Below are positions 59,801 to 64,000 of a DNA stretch of 64,000 nt, in pieces. Both the position numbers and the translations under genes were made by a program. The notes below the pieces were generated by a model. The model made no database searches. It was not told the DNA's origin and saw only the letters and a list, made by a program, of their open reading frames with translations. The stretch is from Cerasicoccus frondis (GTDB taxonomy: Bacteria > Verrucomicrobiota > Verrucomicrobiia > Opitutales > Cerasicoccaceae), in contig JAVDPC010000007.1 in assembly GCA_031296915.1 (NCBI GenBank), positions 164,019 through 228,018 on the forward strand, written 5' to 3'. The stretch's first letter is position 1; every line of letters starts with the position of its first letter.

Positions 59801-60793
59801 TTAGGGAACCGGCACGGTTTCCAAAATCTTATAAACCAGTTGCTCGCTGGTGAAGTCTTCCGCCTCGGCTTCGTAGGAGGGGATGACGCGGTGGCGGAGC
59901 ACGTCGACGCCGATCGTTTTGATGTCCTGTGGGGTCACGTAGCCGCGGCCGTTGAGGAACGCCCAGGCCTTGGCGGCGAGGGTGATGGCGATCGTGGCGC
60001 GCGGGCTGGCGCCAAATTGTACGAAGTTGTCAATGTTCAGGCCGTAGTCGCTCGGCTTGCGGGTCGCAAAGACCAGATCAACCACGTAATCGCGGACCTT
60101 TTCGTCGATGTAAATTTCGTCGACGACCTTGCGCGCTTCGAGAATCTGCTCCGGTGTGATGACGGGCGTGATGTCCATTTTGGGCGCGGTCGAGGCCATG
60201 GCGTCGAGGATCTGGCGCTCTTCGGCGCGCGACGGGTAGCCGATCTTCAGCTTGAGCATGAAGCGATCAACCTGCGCCTCGGGCAGCGGGTAGGTGCCCT
60301 CCTGGTCGATCGGGTTTTCCGTGGCCAACACGAGGAACGGCGCGGGCAGCTTGTGCGTCTCGTCGCCGAGCGTTACCTGGCGCTCCTGCATCGCTTCGAG
60401 CAGGGCGGACTGCACCTTGGCCGGCGCGCGGTTAATTTCGTCGGCCAGGACGATGTTCGCGAAGACCGGGCCTTTCTTGGTGAAGAATTCGCCCTTTTGC
60501 GGGTTGTAAATAAGCGTGCCGACGATGTCGGCGGGCAGCAGGTCGGGCGTGAACTGGATGCGCGAAAAGTCGGCGTGGATCGCGCTGGCCAGCGTGCGCA
60601 CGGAGAGGGTTTTCGCGAGGCCTGGGACACCTTCGAGCAGCACGTGGCCGTTGGCCAAAATGCCGACGATGAGGCGGTCAACCAGGTATTGCTGGCCGAC
60701 GATGACCTTCGCGATCTCCTGCCGCAATTGCGGGACCCAGGCGGAGGCCTCTTTCACGCGTTCATTGACTTCTGAAAGGGAGGATGCGGACAT
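59801..60793 (-). CDS. moxR: MoxR family AAA+ ATPase of the Bat operon
   Basis: The 330-residue protein has Walker A GVPGLAKTLSVRTLA, where Ala replaces the usual Gly before Lys (GLAKT, common in this MoxR subgroup). It also has IQFTPDLLPADIVGTLIYNP, FANIVLADEINRAPAKVQSA, the sensor block LATENPIDQEGTYPLPEAQV and the lid FGASPRATIAITLAAKAW. It heads the operon moxR-DUF58-DUF4381-batA-batBC-batD-batE. ATG at 60793 is preferred to the more upstream 60841. Confidence 0.94.
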   Translation of the reverse strand: MSASSLSEVNERVKEASAWVPQLRQEIAKVIVGQQYLVDRLIVGILANGHVLLEGVPGLAKTLSVRTLASAIHADFSRIQFTPDLLPADIVGTLIYNPQKGEFFTKKGPVFANIVLADEINRAPAKVQSALLEAMQERQVTLGDETHKLPAPFLVLATENPIDQEGTYPLPEAQVDRFMLKLKIGYPSRAEERQILDAMASTAPKMDITPVITPEQILEARKVVDEIYIDEKVRDYVVDLVFATRKPSDYGLNIDNFVQFGASPRATIAITLAAKAWAFLNGRGYVTPQDIKTIGVDVLRHRVIPSYEAEAEDFTSEQLVYKILETVPVP

Positions 60794-61178
60794 AGCTGAT
60801 TGGTTTAGGTTAAGCCCGAGGCCTTGCCTTTTCCCCAGCAAGGCTCGCTAGGTCGAGAAAGACACGGGTTCAGGTGGTTGGTTTCAATAATTCTGAGTGC
60901 CAGCGGAGGAAATATATTCCGCAAAAATCAGCAAAAACGATGCACGTTTCAGGTCAAGGCCGTATGCTGGGGGTGCTGAAACGGGCTGGCGGGGGAAGAT
61001 TGCCTGTGGATCGTGGTCACATAGCAAGCGCACGATAGAAAATAGCCTGAATGGCAGTGCACTGACTGAACGTGGAGGGTAGGGGCTCCGGGTCTTAGCG
61101 TGAACCACTCATGCGTTTTTGAATCTCACGCAAAGACGCAAAGACCCAAAGGGAATACGAGGAAAGATACTCTGACCG
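60794..61178. other. Junction between Bat operon and cassette array
   Basis: About 385 bp with no gene. The left part should hold the moxR promoter. From about 61080 a palindromic repeat occurs (GGGTCTTAGCGTGAAC ... TCTCACGCAAAGACG plus CAAAGACCC) that is shared with 62886-62940 and 3712-3767. GAACGTGGAGGG at 61068-61079 resembles the site ends at 63396 and may be a decayed outermost attC-like site. Confidence 0.5.
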
Positions 61179-61240
61179 AACGCTAAGGGTATGTGCGGAA
61201 AATGCGCCAGCATTTTTCGTCACATATCCCGATTTTTTCT
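61179..61240 (-). repeat. attC-like site 1
   Basis: AACGCTAAG (61179-61187) leads into a hairpin GGGTATGTG...CACATATCCC with inner CG and GAAAATGC/GCATTTTT pairs and loop GCCA (61187-61230), including unpaired bases. The expected GTT end on the gene side is not clear here. Confidence 0.65.
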
Positions 61241-61249
61241 ATTCATTCA

Positions 61250-61840
61250 CTATTGAATTCTATCAACGATTCTTCTCACCTCTTTGAAATCCTTATATGG
61301 CCTTAGCTCCCAAGGTATTACACTAAAATCTAAGCTCCACATCGAATCGCATTCATCACATTGATACCACCTGATCCCTGAGACCTTAGACTCATACAAA
61401 TTTAATATTCCTTGGCCATTACAGCAAGATTTTGGGCTGCTGCGAATAATGAACGAACATAGTTTGCATTTTCGTGCCTCAAATCCTATAGGTGGTTGAC
61501 CAATGGAAACAACAGCATAGCCACCACATTCTGAGCAACGTGTAGCTCCATCAACCTCTGCTAAACTCGCTTTAGCACCCAAGGATTCTAATGAAACGAT
61601 AAGTTCTTCAGCATCAGATAAACTAGAAACCACCAAGCGTTTAGACTTACCTCCTAGGATAGATGAGCACACGTCTTGATGATTCAATGGAGGCTGCAGT
61701 ATAACATACCTTCTCAGCAAGTCCAAAACTCTTTCCCTGAGTTGCTCGTCCATTGCTTTCAGCTCTTTAAAGGATTTAGCCGTAGGTTTTTCAACCTCGC
61801 TCCATCCAGTGAAAGCAACACTAGTCAGATCTTCTTTCAT
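61250..61840 (-). CDS. Cassette gene: hypothetical protein with Cys pairs
   Basis: The 196-residue protein has several CxxC-type pairs (RCSECGGY, KCKLCSF, SCCNG, QCDECDSMW), likely zinc-binding. The N-terminal helical part carries LVVSSLSDAEELIVSLESLG. No family is recognised. The start codon is 3 bp from the next attC-like site and the stop 10 bp from site 1, so the gene fills its cassette. Confidence 0.65.
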   Translation of the reverse strand: MKEDLTSVAFTGWSEVEKPTAKSFKELKAMDEQLRERVLDLLRRYVILQPPLNHQDVCSSILGGKSKRLVVSSLSDAEELIVSLESLGAKASLAEVDGATRCSECGGYAVVSIGQPPIGFEARKCKLCSFIIRSSPKSCCNGQGILNLYESKVSGIRWYQCDECDSMWSLDFSVIPWELRPYKDFKEVRRIVDRIQ

Positions 61841-61842
61841 AG

Positions 61843-61913
61843 AACGCTAAGCTGTGGCACGAAGTGAGCGGAGCGAACGGAGTTGTCCACAAGCGACTTG
61901 TTCGAATCTTTCG
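61843..61913 (-). repeat. attC-like site 2
   Basis: AACGCTAAG (61843-61851) is followed by CTGTGG...TCCACAAG and inner AGTGAGC/AGCG pairs, then CGACTTGTTCG near 61893-61903, which supplies the GTT end. Pairing is weaker than in the other sites. Confidence 0.6.
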
Positions 61914-62348
61914 TTACCATTCATGTGAGATTTCTCCGAGATAGACTAGTTCAACACCAGAAGCCAAAAAAGAACGCGGATTCGATACTTGGCGATGTTC
62001 TCCGAACTTGGGTTGATGATCAATCCCCATCATCGCGAAACTGTTATAGTCTGCGATTCCCAATTCTCTGAGCTTCTCTTCGACAATGGGAGCCCATTTT
62101 TCAACCCAAGAGTGGCCTACAAACATTTTCTCCAGGCTTGAACTTTCTTTCGAGCTAAATCCAAATTCAAAAAAATCATGATCAAACCATGTCTCTCCTT
62201 GAGATGCGATGAACTCACTAAGAGGTAATTCGTCGTTATCTTCATTTTCTTCGTCGAAATACGATTCATCCTCTTTAAAGAATTCCTTGCAACGATTGCC
62301 ATCTGAAAATTTGCAAATCCAAAATTGTGATCTAATTCTTTTGGCCAT
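61914..62348 (-). CDS. Cassette gene: Imm22-like immunity protein candidate
   Basis: The 144-residue protein resembles the immunity protein 22 (DUF4284) pattern: SQFWICKFSDGNRCKEFF near the start, an acidic stretch (YFDEENEDNDELPLSEFI), then TWFDHDFFEFGF with the typical W-F-D-x-D-F/E arrangement, and SSLEKMFVGHSW. Such proteins neutralise toxins of polymorphic or contact-dependent systems. No toxin is adjacent, which fits a stand-alone cassette. The assignment is by eye and should be treated as tentative. Confidence 0.55.
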   Translation of the reverse strand: MAKRIRSQFWICKFSDGNRCKEFFKEDESYFDEENEDNDELPLSEFIASQGETWFDHDFFEFGFSSKESSSLEKMFVGHSWVEKWAPIVEEKLRELGIADYNSFAMMGIDHQPKFGEHRQVSNPRSFLASGVELVYLGEISHEW

Positions 62349-62359
62349 ATAATTTTTCG

Positions 62360-62412
62360 AACGCTAAGAGTAGGTGCGATGTGAATCGTCACCTACCTCG
62401 GTTGGTTGTGCT
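62360..62412 (-). repeat. attC-like site 3
   Basis: AACGCTAAG (62360-62368), hairpin GTAGGTG-CGAT-GTGA-ATCG-T-CACCTAC (62370-62396) with one extra-helical T, then CTCGGTTGGTTG giving GTT ends. The coding frame to its right runs into the site. Confidence 0.72.
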
Positions 62413-62684
62413 TTTGGTCCTTCTATGTGAAGTAAAAGAACCTCTTTCAATTCAGATTCGGTTACAGGCTTAGATTCCGTCCCCCATTCATTGCGACAGC
62501 GCTCAGCCATCGAGGTCCATTCCGATGCGATTGATCTTATATCCTGATCTATTTCTTCGCCTTGCATTTCGTTCTGCGTCGATAGGCATGCATAGTAGAA
62601 TTCAATGAACTCCAAATTCCCAAACACGTATTGATTCGCATGATGAACCAAAGAGCGAAAGCTTGTTGAGAATTGCTTATTCAT
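62364..62684 (-). CDS. Cassette gene: hypothetical helical protein
   Basis: The 106-residue protein is helical and soluble (VFGNLEFIEFYYACLSTQNE, DQDIRSIASEWTSMAERCRN). The size and helix pattern recall small immunity-type proteins, but no family is recognised. The last 15-20 residues (KAQPTEVGDDSHRTYS) are encoded by the attC-like site, so the frame seems to have been extended by the site. Confidence 0.6.
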   Translation of the reverse strand: MNKQFSTSFRSLVHHANQYVFGNLEFIEFYYACLSTQNEMQGEEIDQDIRSIASEWTSMAERCRNEWGTESKPVTESELKEVLLLHIEGPKAQPTEVGDDSHRTYS

Positions 62685-62695
62685 TTTTGCTGCAC

Positions 62696-62905
62696 AACGC
62701 TAAGAGTAGCTGACCGTCATGAAGCGCCGAAAGGCGCGGAATGAAGGGTCAGCTATCTTGACTGGTTCGGTTGCTGGTTGCGGTTGCATGGTCGTGGAGT
62801 GGGAATCTTTGTAGGTGGGTTTCAGGTGGATAGCAATTCCTCAGTGTGATGGGAATACCTTTTCTGTCGTGAAGTGGCTTTGGGTTTCCGGTTCTTGGCG
62901 TGAAC
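62696..62905 (-). repeat. 210-bp direct repeat, copy 1 (contains attC-like site 4 and gene-less unit)
   Basis: The attC-like site has AACGCTAAG (62696-62704) and a 9-bp perfect outer stem TAGCTGACC/GGTCAGCTA (62707-62755) with an inner GCGCC-GAAA-GGCGC hairpin, then GACTGGTTCGGTTG. The rest is a gene-less segment ending with the GGTTCTTGGCGTGAAC word. The whole is about 90% identical to 63791-64000. The region 62756-62979 has no gene. Confidence 0.75.
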
Positions 62906-62979
62906 AACTCATGCGTTAATGAATCTCACGCGAAGACCCAAAGGCGCGAAGAGTTTCTTAGGAGTGGCAATGTTGACCG

Positions 62980-63042
62980 AACGTCGAGGTCTCACGCGGC
63001 GCTTGTCGCCGTTGTGAGCACCGCCTTGATATGCTTATTGTT
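62980..63042 (-). repeat. attC-like site 5
   Basis: AACGTCGAG (62981 on) leads to a stem CTCAC-G-CGGCG / CGCCG-TT-GTGAG (about 62991-63017, loop CTTGT-like) with asymmetric bulge, and the gene-side end GTTTAAA at 63038-63044 overlaps the gene stop. Confidence 0.55.
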
Positions 63043-63382
63043 TAAATTGTGGATCATGGTCGATAGCTCCGAGAACGGCATCGTCTCCTTCATAAAATCG
63101 CTTCAACCTCGCCAACATCTCATCCTTGGTATTGTGCAGTTCGCAACCAACGATCCAAGCATCATGACTCGGAAGCTGATACATGTTCTTCTTTAATTCG
63201 TCTGACCATTCTGTTTCGCGAACAACTTGCCTAAGAAGTGCGGAAATCAGGTTAAGGTAACCATCTTTCGTTCCAAGCAAAGTAGACTCGTCCGTATGCT
63301 CAGAAGCGATAACACAAGAAGCTGAATCATCGGTGATCGATGACTCAAGAAGTTCTAGTGCTTGTTGCAGTTTGGGATCCAT
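63035..63382 (-). CDS. Cassette gene: hypothetical protein
   Basis: The 115-residue protein is acidic and soluble (LQQALELLESSITDDSASCV, YLNLISALLRQVVRETEW, HDAWIVGCELHNTKDEMLAR). No family is recognised. It starts 14 bp from attC-like site 6 and ends inside site 5. Confidence 0.6.
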   Translation of the reverse strand: MDPKLQQALELLESSITDDSASCVIASEHTDESTLLGTKDGYLNLISALLRQVVRETEWSDELKKNMYQLPSHDAWIVGCELHNTKDEMLARLKRFYEGDDAVLGAIDHDPQFKQ

Positions 63383-63395
63383 TTCATATCTGCAT

Positions 63396-63458
63396 AACGT
63401 GGAGGGTATATGCGAAAATGCGCCAGCATTTTACGTCATATATCCCGCTTGGTTAGCG
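63396..63458 (-). repeat. attC-like site 6
   Basis: AACGTGGA (63396 on), hairpin GGGTATATG-CG-AAAATGC-GCCA-GCATTTT-A-CG-T-CATATATCCC (63404-63446) with extra-helical A and T, and GGTTAGCG at 63451-63458. The stem is almost the same as in site 1. Confidence 0.75.
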
Positions 63459-63780
63459 CTTCTACAGTTGGTATAGCTTTCCACCACAGGTAGAGAGTTG
63501 TTAGCCCATATAATCCAGCGCCGAGAAATGCGCATATCGCAATATTTATTTTGCCGTTGAATATAAGCAAACAACTGGTGAATAACCATAAAACAAAAAG
63601 TAACAGGGCTGGAATCTGGGTCCAGCGCCAATTCATCAACATTCCGAGGCCAACCAAATAACCTAAGCAGACGGATGTTAGCCCGAACCAACTCAAGCCA
63701 AGGCCATTCTTAAGGAGAGCAATCGTTGCTCCAAGCAATAGAACGATCCCCATGCGCTGAATGTGATTCGGATATTTCAT
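63436..63780 (-). CDS. Cassette gene: small four-helix membrane protein
   Basis: The 114-residue protein is nearly all membrane helix: MGIVLLLGATIALLKNGLG, LTSVCLGYLVGLGMLMNW, QIPALLLFVLWLFTSCLLIF and IAICAFLGAGLYGLTTLYLW. No family is recognised. The stop codon lies inside attC-like site 6, and the start is 10 bp from site 7. Confidence 0.65.
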   Translation of the reverse strand: MKYPNHIQRMGIVLLLGATIALLKNGLGLSWFGLTSVCLGYLVGLGMLMNWRWTQIPALLLFVLWLFTSCLLIFNGKINIAICAFLGAGLYGLTTLYLWWKAIPTVEALTKRDI

Positions 63781-63790
63781 CTACTTCGCT

Positions 63791-64000
63791 AACGCTAAGA
63801 GTAGCTGACCGTCATGGAGCGCCTAAAGGCGCGGAATGAAGGGTCAGCTATCTCGACTGGTTCGGTTGCTGGTTGCGGTTGCATGGTGGAGGAGTGGAAT
63901 TGGTTGTAGGTGGGTTTCAGGTAGATGGCAATTCCTCAGTGTGATTGGAATGCCTTTTCTGTAGTGGAGTGGCTTTGGGTCTCCGGGTCTTGGCGTGAAC
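63791..64000 (-). repeat. 210-bp direct repeat, copy 2 (contains attC-like site 7), cut by window end
   Basis: The attC-like site starts with AACGCTAAG (63791-63799) and a stem TAGCTGACC/GGTCAGCTA (63802-63850) with inner GCGCC-TAAA-GGCGC, followed by GACTGGTTCGGTTG. The loop change from GAAA to TAAA leaves pairing intact. The similarity to copy 1 continues to the last base of the window, so the unit probably extends beyond it. Confidence 0.75.

Follow-up and report, generated by a model that had tools for sequence, protein, structure and literature searches.

The 64-kb stretch of contig C7 analyzed here (the window) ends in a run of small minus-strand genes followed by hairpins, and the question that this locus raises is whether these are the gene cassettes and attC recombination sites of an integron and, if so, which part of the array is preserved and where its integrase, IntI, is encoded. 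Our results lead us to conclude with high confidence that positions 61,069-64,000 belong to a sedentary chromosomal integron of a Verrucomicrobiota (Opitutia-like) bacterium and form the distal end of its cassette array. This region holds seven attC sites, two of them weak, along with five gene-bearing cassettes and copies of a gene-less cassette of ~285 bp, all on the minus strand (Table 1). Below, the genome to which the window belongs is G000, its other contigs carry labels within C1-C53, and related genomes of the family are likewise designated by G numbers.

An integron cassette array had been proposed in a first-pass annotation made from the letters of the sequence, and this proposal is now borne out by attC models that match the sites and by an IntI above its family cut-off in the same genome. 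The motif AACGCTAAG, which the annotation had placed at five boundaries, occurs at exactly five positions in the window, all within 61,179-63,799 (0.31 expected; none of 100 shuffles reaches five). Both pairs of near-identical hairpins that it described are present, at 92% identity each: 61,198-61,234 matches 63,414-63,450, and 62,696-62,905 matches 63,791-64,000 over 210 nt, a similarity longer than the hairpin alone. Other claims stood in part. Five small minus-strand open reading frames (ORFs) of 106-196 amino acids do each terminate at an attC-like site, but some cassettes, namely 62,698-62,981 and the cut cassette at 63,791-64,000, have no gene. The sites, thought to be hairpins of 40-60 bp with AAC/GTT-type ends, measure 48-72 nt, and in the last of them (61,179-61,238) the R'' end no longer carries AAC. 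The array, delimited at 61,179-64,000, continues for ~110 bases further left (61,069-61,178). As the annotation had noted, the cassettes are AT-richer than their surroundings, with GC content in 500-base steps of 0.41-0.49 from 61 kb onward and 0.55-0.65 across 56-61 kb. Base 64,000 of the window is the end of contig C7, and the assembly holds no right flank.

Table 1. Features of the array and its distal boundary. Held-out and covariance scores refer to the two attC models described in the text; fold z refers to single-stranded DNA folding compared with shuffles.
Position	Strand	Feature	Evidence
59801..60841	-	MoxR-type AAA ATPase gene, first of the conserved operon bounding the array distally	Pfam AAA_3 219 bits and AAA lid, residues from 60,793
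61069..61178	-	Truncated last cassette	Front of gene-less cassette fused to 3' half of attC; direct repeats and sequence
61179..61238	-	attC, R'' end decayed (AAA for AAC)	Held-out 41.4; covariance 73.7 bits (training site); fold z -2.94
61250..61840	-	Coding cassette, 196 aa, no family match	ORF; unmatched in Pfam (E 0.1) and NCBIfam (E 0.01)
61843..61904	-	Weak attC candidate (CGAAC ... AGCGTT, imperfect arms)	Cassette-boundary position; held-out 10.2; fold z -0.61
61914..62348	-	Coding cassette, 144 aa, DUF4284/Immunity protein 22 family	PF14112 E 7.2e-10, 40.2 bits, cut-off 27
62360..62407	-	attC	Held-out 43.3; covariance 60.5 bits (training site); fold z -3.59
62364..62684	-	Coding cassette, 106 aa, no Pfam (E 0.1) or NCBIfam (E 0.01) match	ORF; 3' end overlaps attC
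62696..62767	-	attC of gene-less cassette	Held-out 45.7; covariance 40.5 bits, E 4.9e-9 (untrained); fold z -5.75
62698..62981	-	Gene-less cassette, ~285 bp	Inverted repeat (arms ~26 nt) and attC; 14 aligned genome copies; no codon periodicity
62980..63031	-	Weak attC candidate	Held-out 10.7; fold z -2.48
63035..63382	-	Coding cassette, 115 aa, no Pfam (E 0.1) or NCBIfam (E 0.01) match	ORF
63396..63454	-	attC	Held-out 40.0; covariance 75.3 bits (training site); fold z -2.79
63436..63780	-	Coding cassette, 114 aa, no Pfam (E 0.1) or NCBIfam (E 0.01) match	ORF; small membrane protein-like by eye
63791..63862	-	attC of second gene-less cassette	Held-out 49.9; covariance 43.8 bits, E 5.6e-10 (untrained); fold z -5.53
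63791..64000	-	Second gene-less cassette, cut by contig end	92% identical to 62,696-62,905 over 210 nt

The attC sites were modeled in two ways. A rule-based scan proved too permissive and was replaced by a two-arm pairing motif and by covariance models, with the short (A6) and long (A7) sites treated separately because MAFFT alignments that mixed them misplaced the inner arm. The held-out model, a two-arm motif with pairing, was built from 15 sites outside the window, which are paralogs from the same genome. It scores five of the seven window sites at 40.0-49.9, well over background, the best score elsewhere on either strand of the window being 13.7. The covariance model, built from 13 short attC sites of which three lie in the window, picks up the same five, including the two long sites on which it was not trained. 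When folded as single-stranded DNA, six of the seven sites are better than their shuffles. Rfam, searched at gathering thresholds, has no match anywhere in the window.

The first-pass annotation had inferred that the integrase and attI lie to the right of the array and had called for a search of that flank for IntI. One integron integrase above the family cut-off is indeed encoded in the genome, on a different contig (TIGR02249, C38:46809-47741, 373.2 bits, or 372.5 with hmmscan, against a cut-off of 265). The intact gene (C38:46800-48044; L017:1492-2736, minus strand) encodes a protein of 414 amino acids whose closest solved structure is the integron integrase 2a3v (E 7.8e-70, residues 103-412), an entry that reads site-specific recombinase IntI4 and that we take to be VchIntIA. 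Residues R229, K254, H360, R363, H386 and Y395 are invariant in a 15-protein alignment and correspond to the catalytic set of tyrosine recombinases (R, K, H, R, H, Y). IntI is presumably active. The gene is transcribed away from the array, and the two diverge: ~135 bases upstream of the first listed intI start codon lies AACTTAAG^TT, followed by a gene-less cassette, an attC site, the start of a gene and the end of the contig. This attI-like junction marks the putative attI. Compared across most of its length, IntI has its nearest named relatives (L081-L092) in metagenome-assembled genomes (MAGs) recorded as Puniceicoccaceae, Opitutales and other Opitutia, at 56-60% identity, which makes it probable that the host falls in or close to Opitutia. 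In 11 of these 12 the contig ends <2 kb upstream of intI, and three contig ends of G002 (C2, C4 and C8) lie at integron parts; integron arrays seem to break assemblies.

The window itself preserves the other side of an array. We take its left end to be the distal one because the covariance model finds no attC left of 61,069 in the window, a conserved moxR operon lies there, the last cassette is a fossil made of the front of a gene-less cassette and half an attC, and a short piece of the gene-less cassette repeat is found in G002 upstream of moxR (L152:4520-4580), on the same side and in the same orientation as the window array. A moxR homolog is present in all 10 family genomes, its product is 90-99% identical across the four same-genus genomes, and the order of the operon is the same in G002, G003, G007 and G008, the four genomes compared. 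A gene that we take from its sequence to be dnaX is separated from moxR by ~9-12 kb in G007, G008 and G009, with the operon between them in G007 and G008 (the two inspected), and a gene that is presumably typA lies near moxR in G003 and sits on contig C20 in G000. An attempt to link C38 to C7 by dnaX/moxR synteny led to no conclusion, the orientation in G000 not fitting one simple insertion.

C38 and C7 are likely the two ends of one array, a relationship that their orientation fits. We envision that the IntI encoded on C38 would insert circular cassettes at attI and excise them at attC, with attC acting as a folded single strand, and that cassettes would accumulate in one orientation with the oldest farthest from attI. 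Cassette age would accordingly be expected to increase leftwards, and the end seen in the window would be the old end, bearing the decayed last cassette.

Several observations weigh against this picture. The candidate sites at 62,980 and 61,843 score 10.7 and 10.2 in the held-out model, which is background level, and 61,843-61,904 folds no better than its shuffles. No sequence in the assembly joins C38 to C7, and C7, C32 and C53 all resemble distal ends, with one intI end, on C38, to set against them. Finally, attC matches are present in three family genomes that lack an IntI at E <= 1e-40; the occurrence of attC sites is thus no proof that an integrase is close by. A rival account is that the window array is a cluster of attC sites lacking an integron integrase (CALIN) at the moxR site, with the C38 IntI serving another array; the cassettes are then still integron cassettes, and this account therefore overlaps our own. 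It would suit the three contigs that end in arrays reading towards a chromosomal flank when C38 alone has an integrase end, the array on C17 that is bounded on one contig without an IntI match, and the run of attC matches in G005, a genome without IntI at E <= 1e-40. However, C38 breaks off inside its array and carries the same gene-less cassette as C7, at 92% identity, and passages of PMC9024848 indicate that broken assemblies inflate CALIN counts; we consider this account a serious contender, though the less probable one. It is, by contrast, very hard to believe that there is no integron here and that dispersed hairpin repeats happen to lie between small genes. The arms of the inverted repeat in the gene-less cassette do match short stretches outside arrays (C4, C7:27,888 and C22), and a lone decayed copy of that cassette is present on C1. 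But the sites lie at gene ends in one orientation and have exact recombination points, an IntI is present, and attC counts among relatives follow IntI presence.

These counts come from the covariance model (matches at E <= 0.01, 150 candidates scored per genome, 10 family genomes): 31 matches in G000, 4, 18 and 10 in the three other genomes of the genus, and 1, 2, 0, 0, 2 and 0 in the six of other genera. With a threshold of E <= 1e-40, IntI is detected in 4/4 same-genus genomes vs 0/6 of the others. Six attC matches of G005 fall in one 14-kb stretch (L159), and G008 has two (L160). Within G000, an array of roughly a dozen attC sites (L047:7304-17126) lies wholly within C17, with no IntI match there, and a second small array on C7, ~30 kb left of the window (L050:6633-8264), includes a cassette for a GNAT acetyltransferase as well as a gene-less one.

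The ~285-bp gene-less cassette accompanies the distal end of the array described here and recurs through the genome. We aligned 14 copies, on C1, C7, C17, C21, C32, C38, C45 and C53, two of which are cut by contig ends. Copies start at TTCGGT just past the recombination point and end at attC, with damaged ends in those on C1 and C45 and in one on C32. Their longest ORF varies from copy to copy and their substitutions lack codon periodicity. The inverted repeat, with arms of ~26 nt, we take to be real; with the structure slid by -1, 85.8% of cells are paired and both sides change in 3 pairs (5 cells), and covariation is unproven. The attC type of the cassette is uniform, with 94% mean column identity among the 13 sites chosen as the type, 11 of them the ends of gene-less copies, and two gene cassettes on C17 bear the same type. 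In the four mapped arrays the cassette occupies 7 of the 32 spans between listed attC sites; one such span on C32 hides a further attC, so that there are slightly more cassettes than spans. Elsewhere in the genus, a single partial copy with 80% identity occurs in G002, and G001 and G003 match mostly the attC part; the cassette is absent from the six family genomes of other genera and has no match in plasmid and phage collections. The lone copy on C1 (L051:6828-7110) has a damaged attC end and lies upstream of a gene of unknown kind. It possibly reflects an insertion away from attI that has since decayed.

Multicopy non-coding cassettes are known from Vibrio, where, according to passages of PMC1382264, one family reaches 45 copies in V. 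vulnificus CMCP6, and the family described here resembles them in lacking a gene, in its many copies per genome and in its exact cassette boundaries. It differs in its inverted repeat with ~26-nt arms and in its lack of a homolog in the plasmid and phage collections, and any promoter role is putative here. By analogy, the cassette could serve downstream cassettes as a promoter or insulator: excerpts of PMC11014356 report sense promoter activity in most of 29 Vibrio gene-less cassettes, an activity that was not predictable in silico. The rival to this role alone is that the cassette is a passenger that multiplies through a well-recombining attC without effect on its neighbors, and we judge the two about as likely, the passenger coming close to an even bet. 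Sigma-70-like sites do not exceed chance between 60,900 and 64,000 (3 found vs 5.0 expected) and none lies in the gene-less cassette; of a TTGCCA-17-TACAAA pair recognized by eye, TTGCCA is present in 12 of 14 copies, the second half is variable, and the pair is not kept in the G002 copy. The uniformity of the attC type and the position of a copy in the first place after the putative attI on C38 also speak for a passenger. However, conservation spans the whole cassette body rather than attC alone, and the Vibrio promoter data likewise point the other way.

The integrase has a feature of its own. TIGR02249 and 2a3v cover residues 102/103-412 only, and when residues ~13-97 are compared as a profile with the core-binding domain of the same proteins, they match it at 93.9% probability; four other regions and two reversed controls give 0.1%, and 50 column shuffles at most 1.6%. 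The best solved-structure match of this N-terminal profile is again 2a3v (residues 17-57, E 0.0053), and Phage_int_SAM_4 matches the N-terminal part alone in 2 of 11 members (best 3.8e-7), the G000 protein not being one of them. IntI thus seems, on these profiles, to have a divergent second core-binding domain N-terminal to the usual one. To count this domain we considered 37 of the fetched loci, left out 8 (L088-L093, L107 and L122) with frames of <270 amino acids from the match start, and scanned the other 29 together with the G000 protein. The domain is found in 21 of these 30 integrases, 13 from Verrucomicrobiota, 6 from Spirochaetota, 1 from Planctomycetota and 1 unnamed, 11 of them forming the training set of the profile, and in all 21 the same profile also matches the normal core-binding domain (E <= 0.025). 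The nine integrases in which it was not found comprise five from Pseudomonadota, one from a Deltaproteobacterium, one from Nitrospinota and two from Verrucomicrobiota, one of these a fragment. In a tree of 29 integrases, from which the fragment L121 was also omitted, a single change suffices to explain the distribution of the N-terminal domain, though support is low (46/9).

In their core-binding and catalytic domains (residues 103-412), the IntI described here, 2a3v and the simple tyrosine recombinases are alike. Simple recombinases, integron integrases included, are described in passages of PMC8138268 as having one core-binding and one catalytic domain, and IntI departs from this, judged by sequence profiles, in the second core-binding domain that precedes the first. 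A longer IntI has been described, in a deltaproteobacterial clade (15) where gene fusion added ~120 amino acids, the passages of PMC2426708 leaving unstated which end is extended. Among titles, abstract starts and opened passages of the open PMC literature we found no account of a tandem-domain IntI, and no article there combined "integron integrase", "N-terminal extension" and "attC".

Comparison within the genus reveals a second departure from the ordinary. Three of the four IntI proteins are over the family cut-off; that of G001 has one in-frame TGA, and that of G002 is broken and lies at a contig end. G000 IntI shares 37% identity with its counterparts in G001 and G003, which are 42% identical to each other, and the broken IntI of G002 is 53-66% identical, in pieces, to that of G000. 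G002 and G003 both contain strong matches to the covariance model, and in G003 three such matches lie 0.7-1.8 kb upstream of the intI frame. Integrases at 37-42% identity in these pairings thus occur in same-genus genomes whose moxR products remain 90-99% identical and whose attC sites are shared, which suggests an exchange of integrases with retention of the attC family. A broader scenario, which we hold to be improbable as a whole and offer as speculation, is that there is an IntI subfamily, chiefly in Verrucomicrobiota and Spirochaetota, with tandem core-binding domains, in which the extra domain would provide an additional contact with folded attC or with attI and so let quite different integrase lineages in one genus work the same attC family; in G000 the system would also spread the gene-less cassette as a mobile promoter or insulator between gene cassettes.

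Published work already covers both integrons in Verrucomicrobiota, the phylum appearing in an integron phylum list in passages of PMC8618304, and non-coding cassettes present in many copies, so that the window array belongs to a known kind. With sedentary chromosomal integrons, such as the superintegrons of Vibrio and others, it has in common an IntI over the TIGR02249 cut-off, an attI-like junction, a one-way array of mostly unknown small genes and attC sites that resemble one another. It differs from them in the extra N-terminal domain of IntI, in an assembly broken inside the arrays, and in an attC family common to same-genus genomes whose IntI proteins are 37-42% identical (three pairings). 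For integrons in Opitutia, titles, abstract starts and opened passages of the open PMC literature yielded no account. Two points are less ordinary, the apparent integrase architecture and the sharing of attC sites despite divergent IntI; this architecture and the gene-less cassette family merit further attention.

Altogether, these findings add a well-supported chromosomal integron to a phylum in which few have been described, together with a within-family comparison of IntI presence. The multicopy gene-less cassette provides a case outside Vibrio in which the question of promoter versus passenger can be posed. The tandem core-binding architecture, if structure confirms it, would be at odds with the account of integron integrases as having one core-binding domain and would make the recognition of attC and attI testable in a new way.

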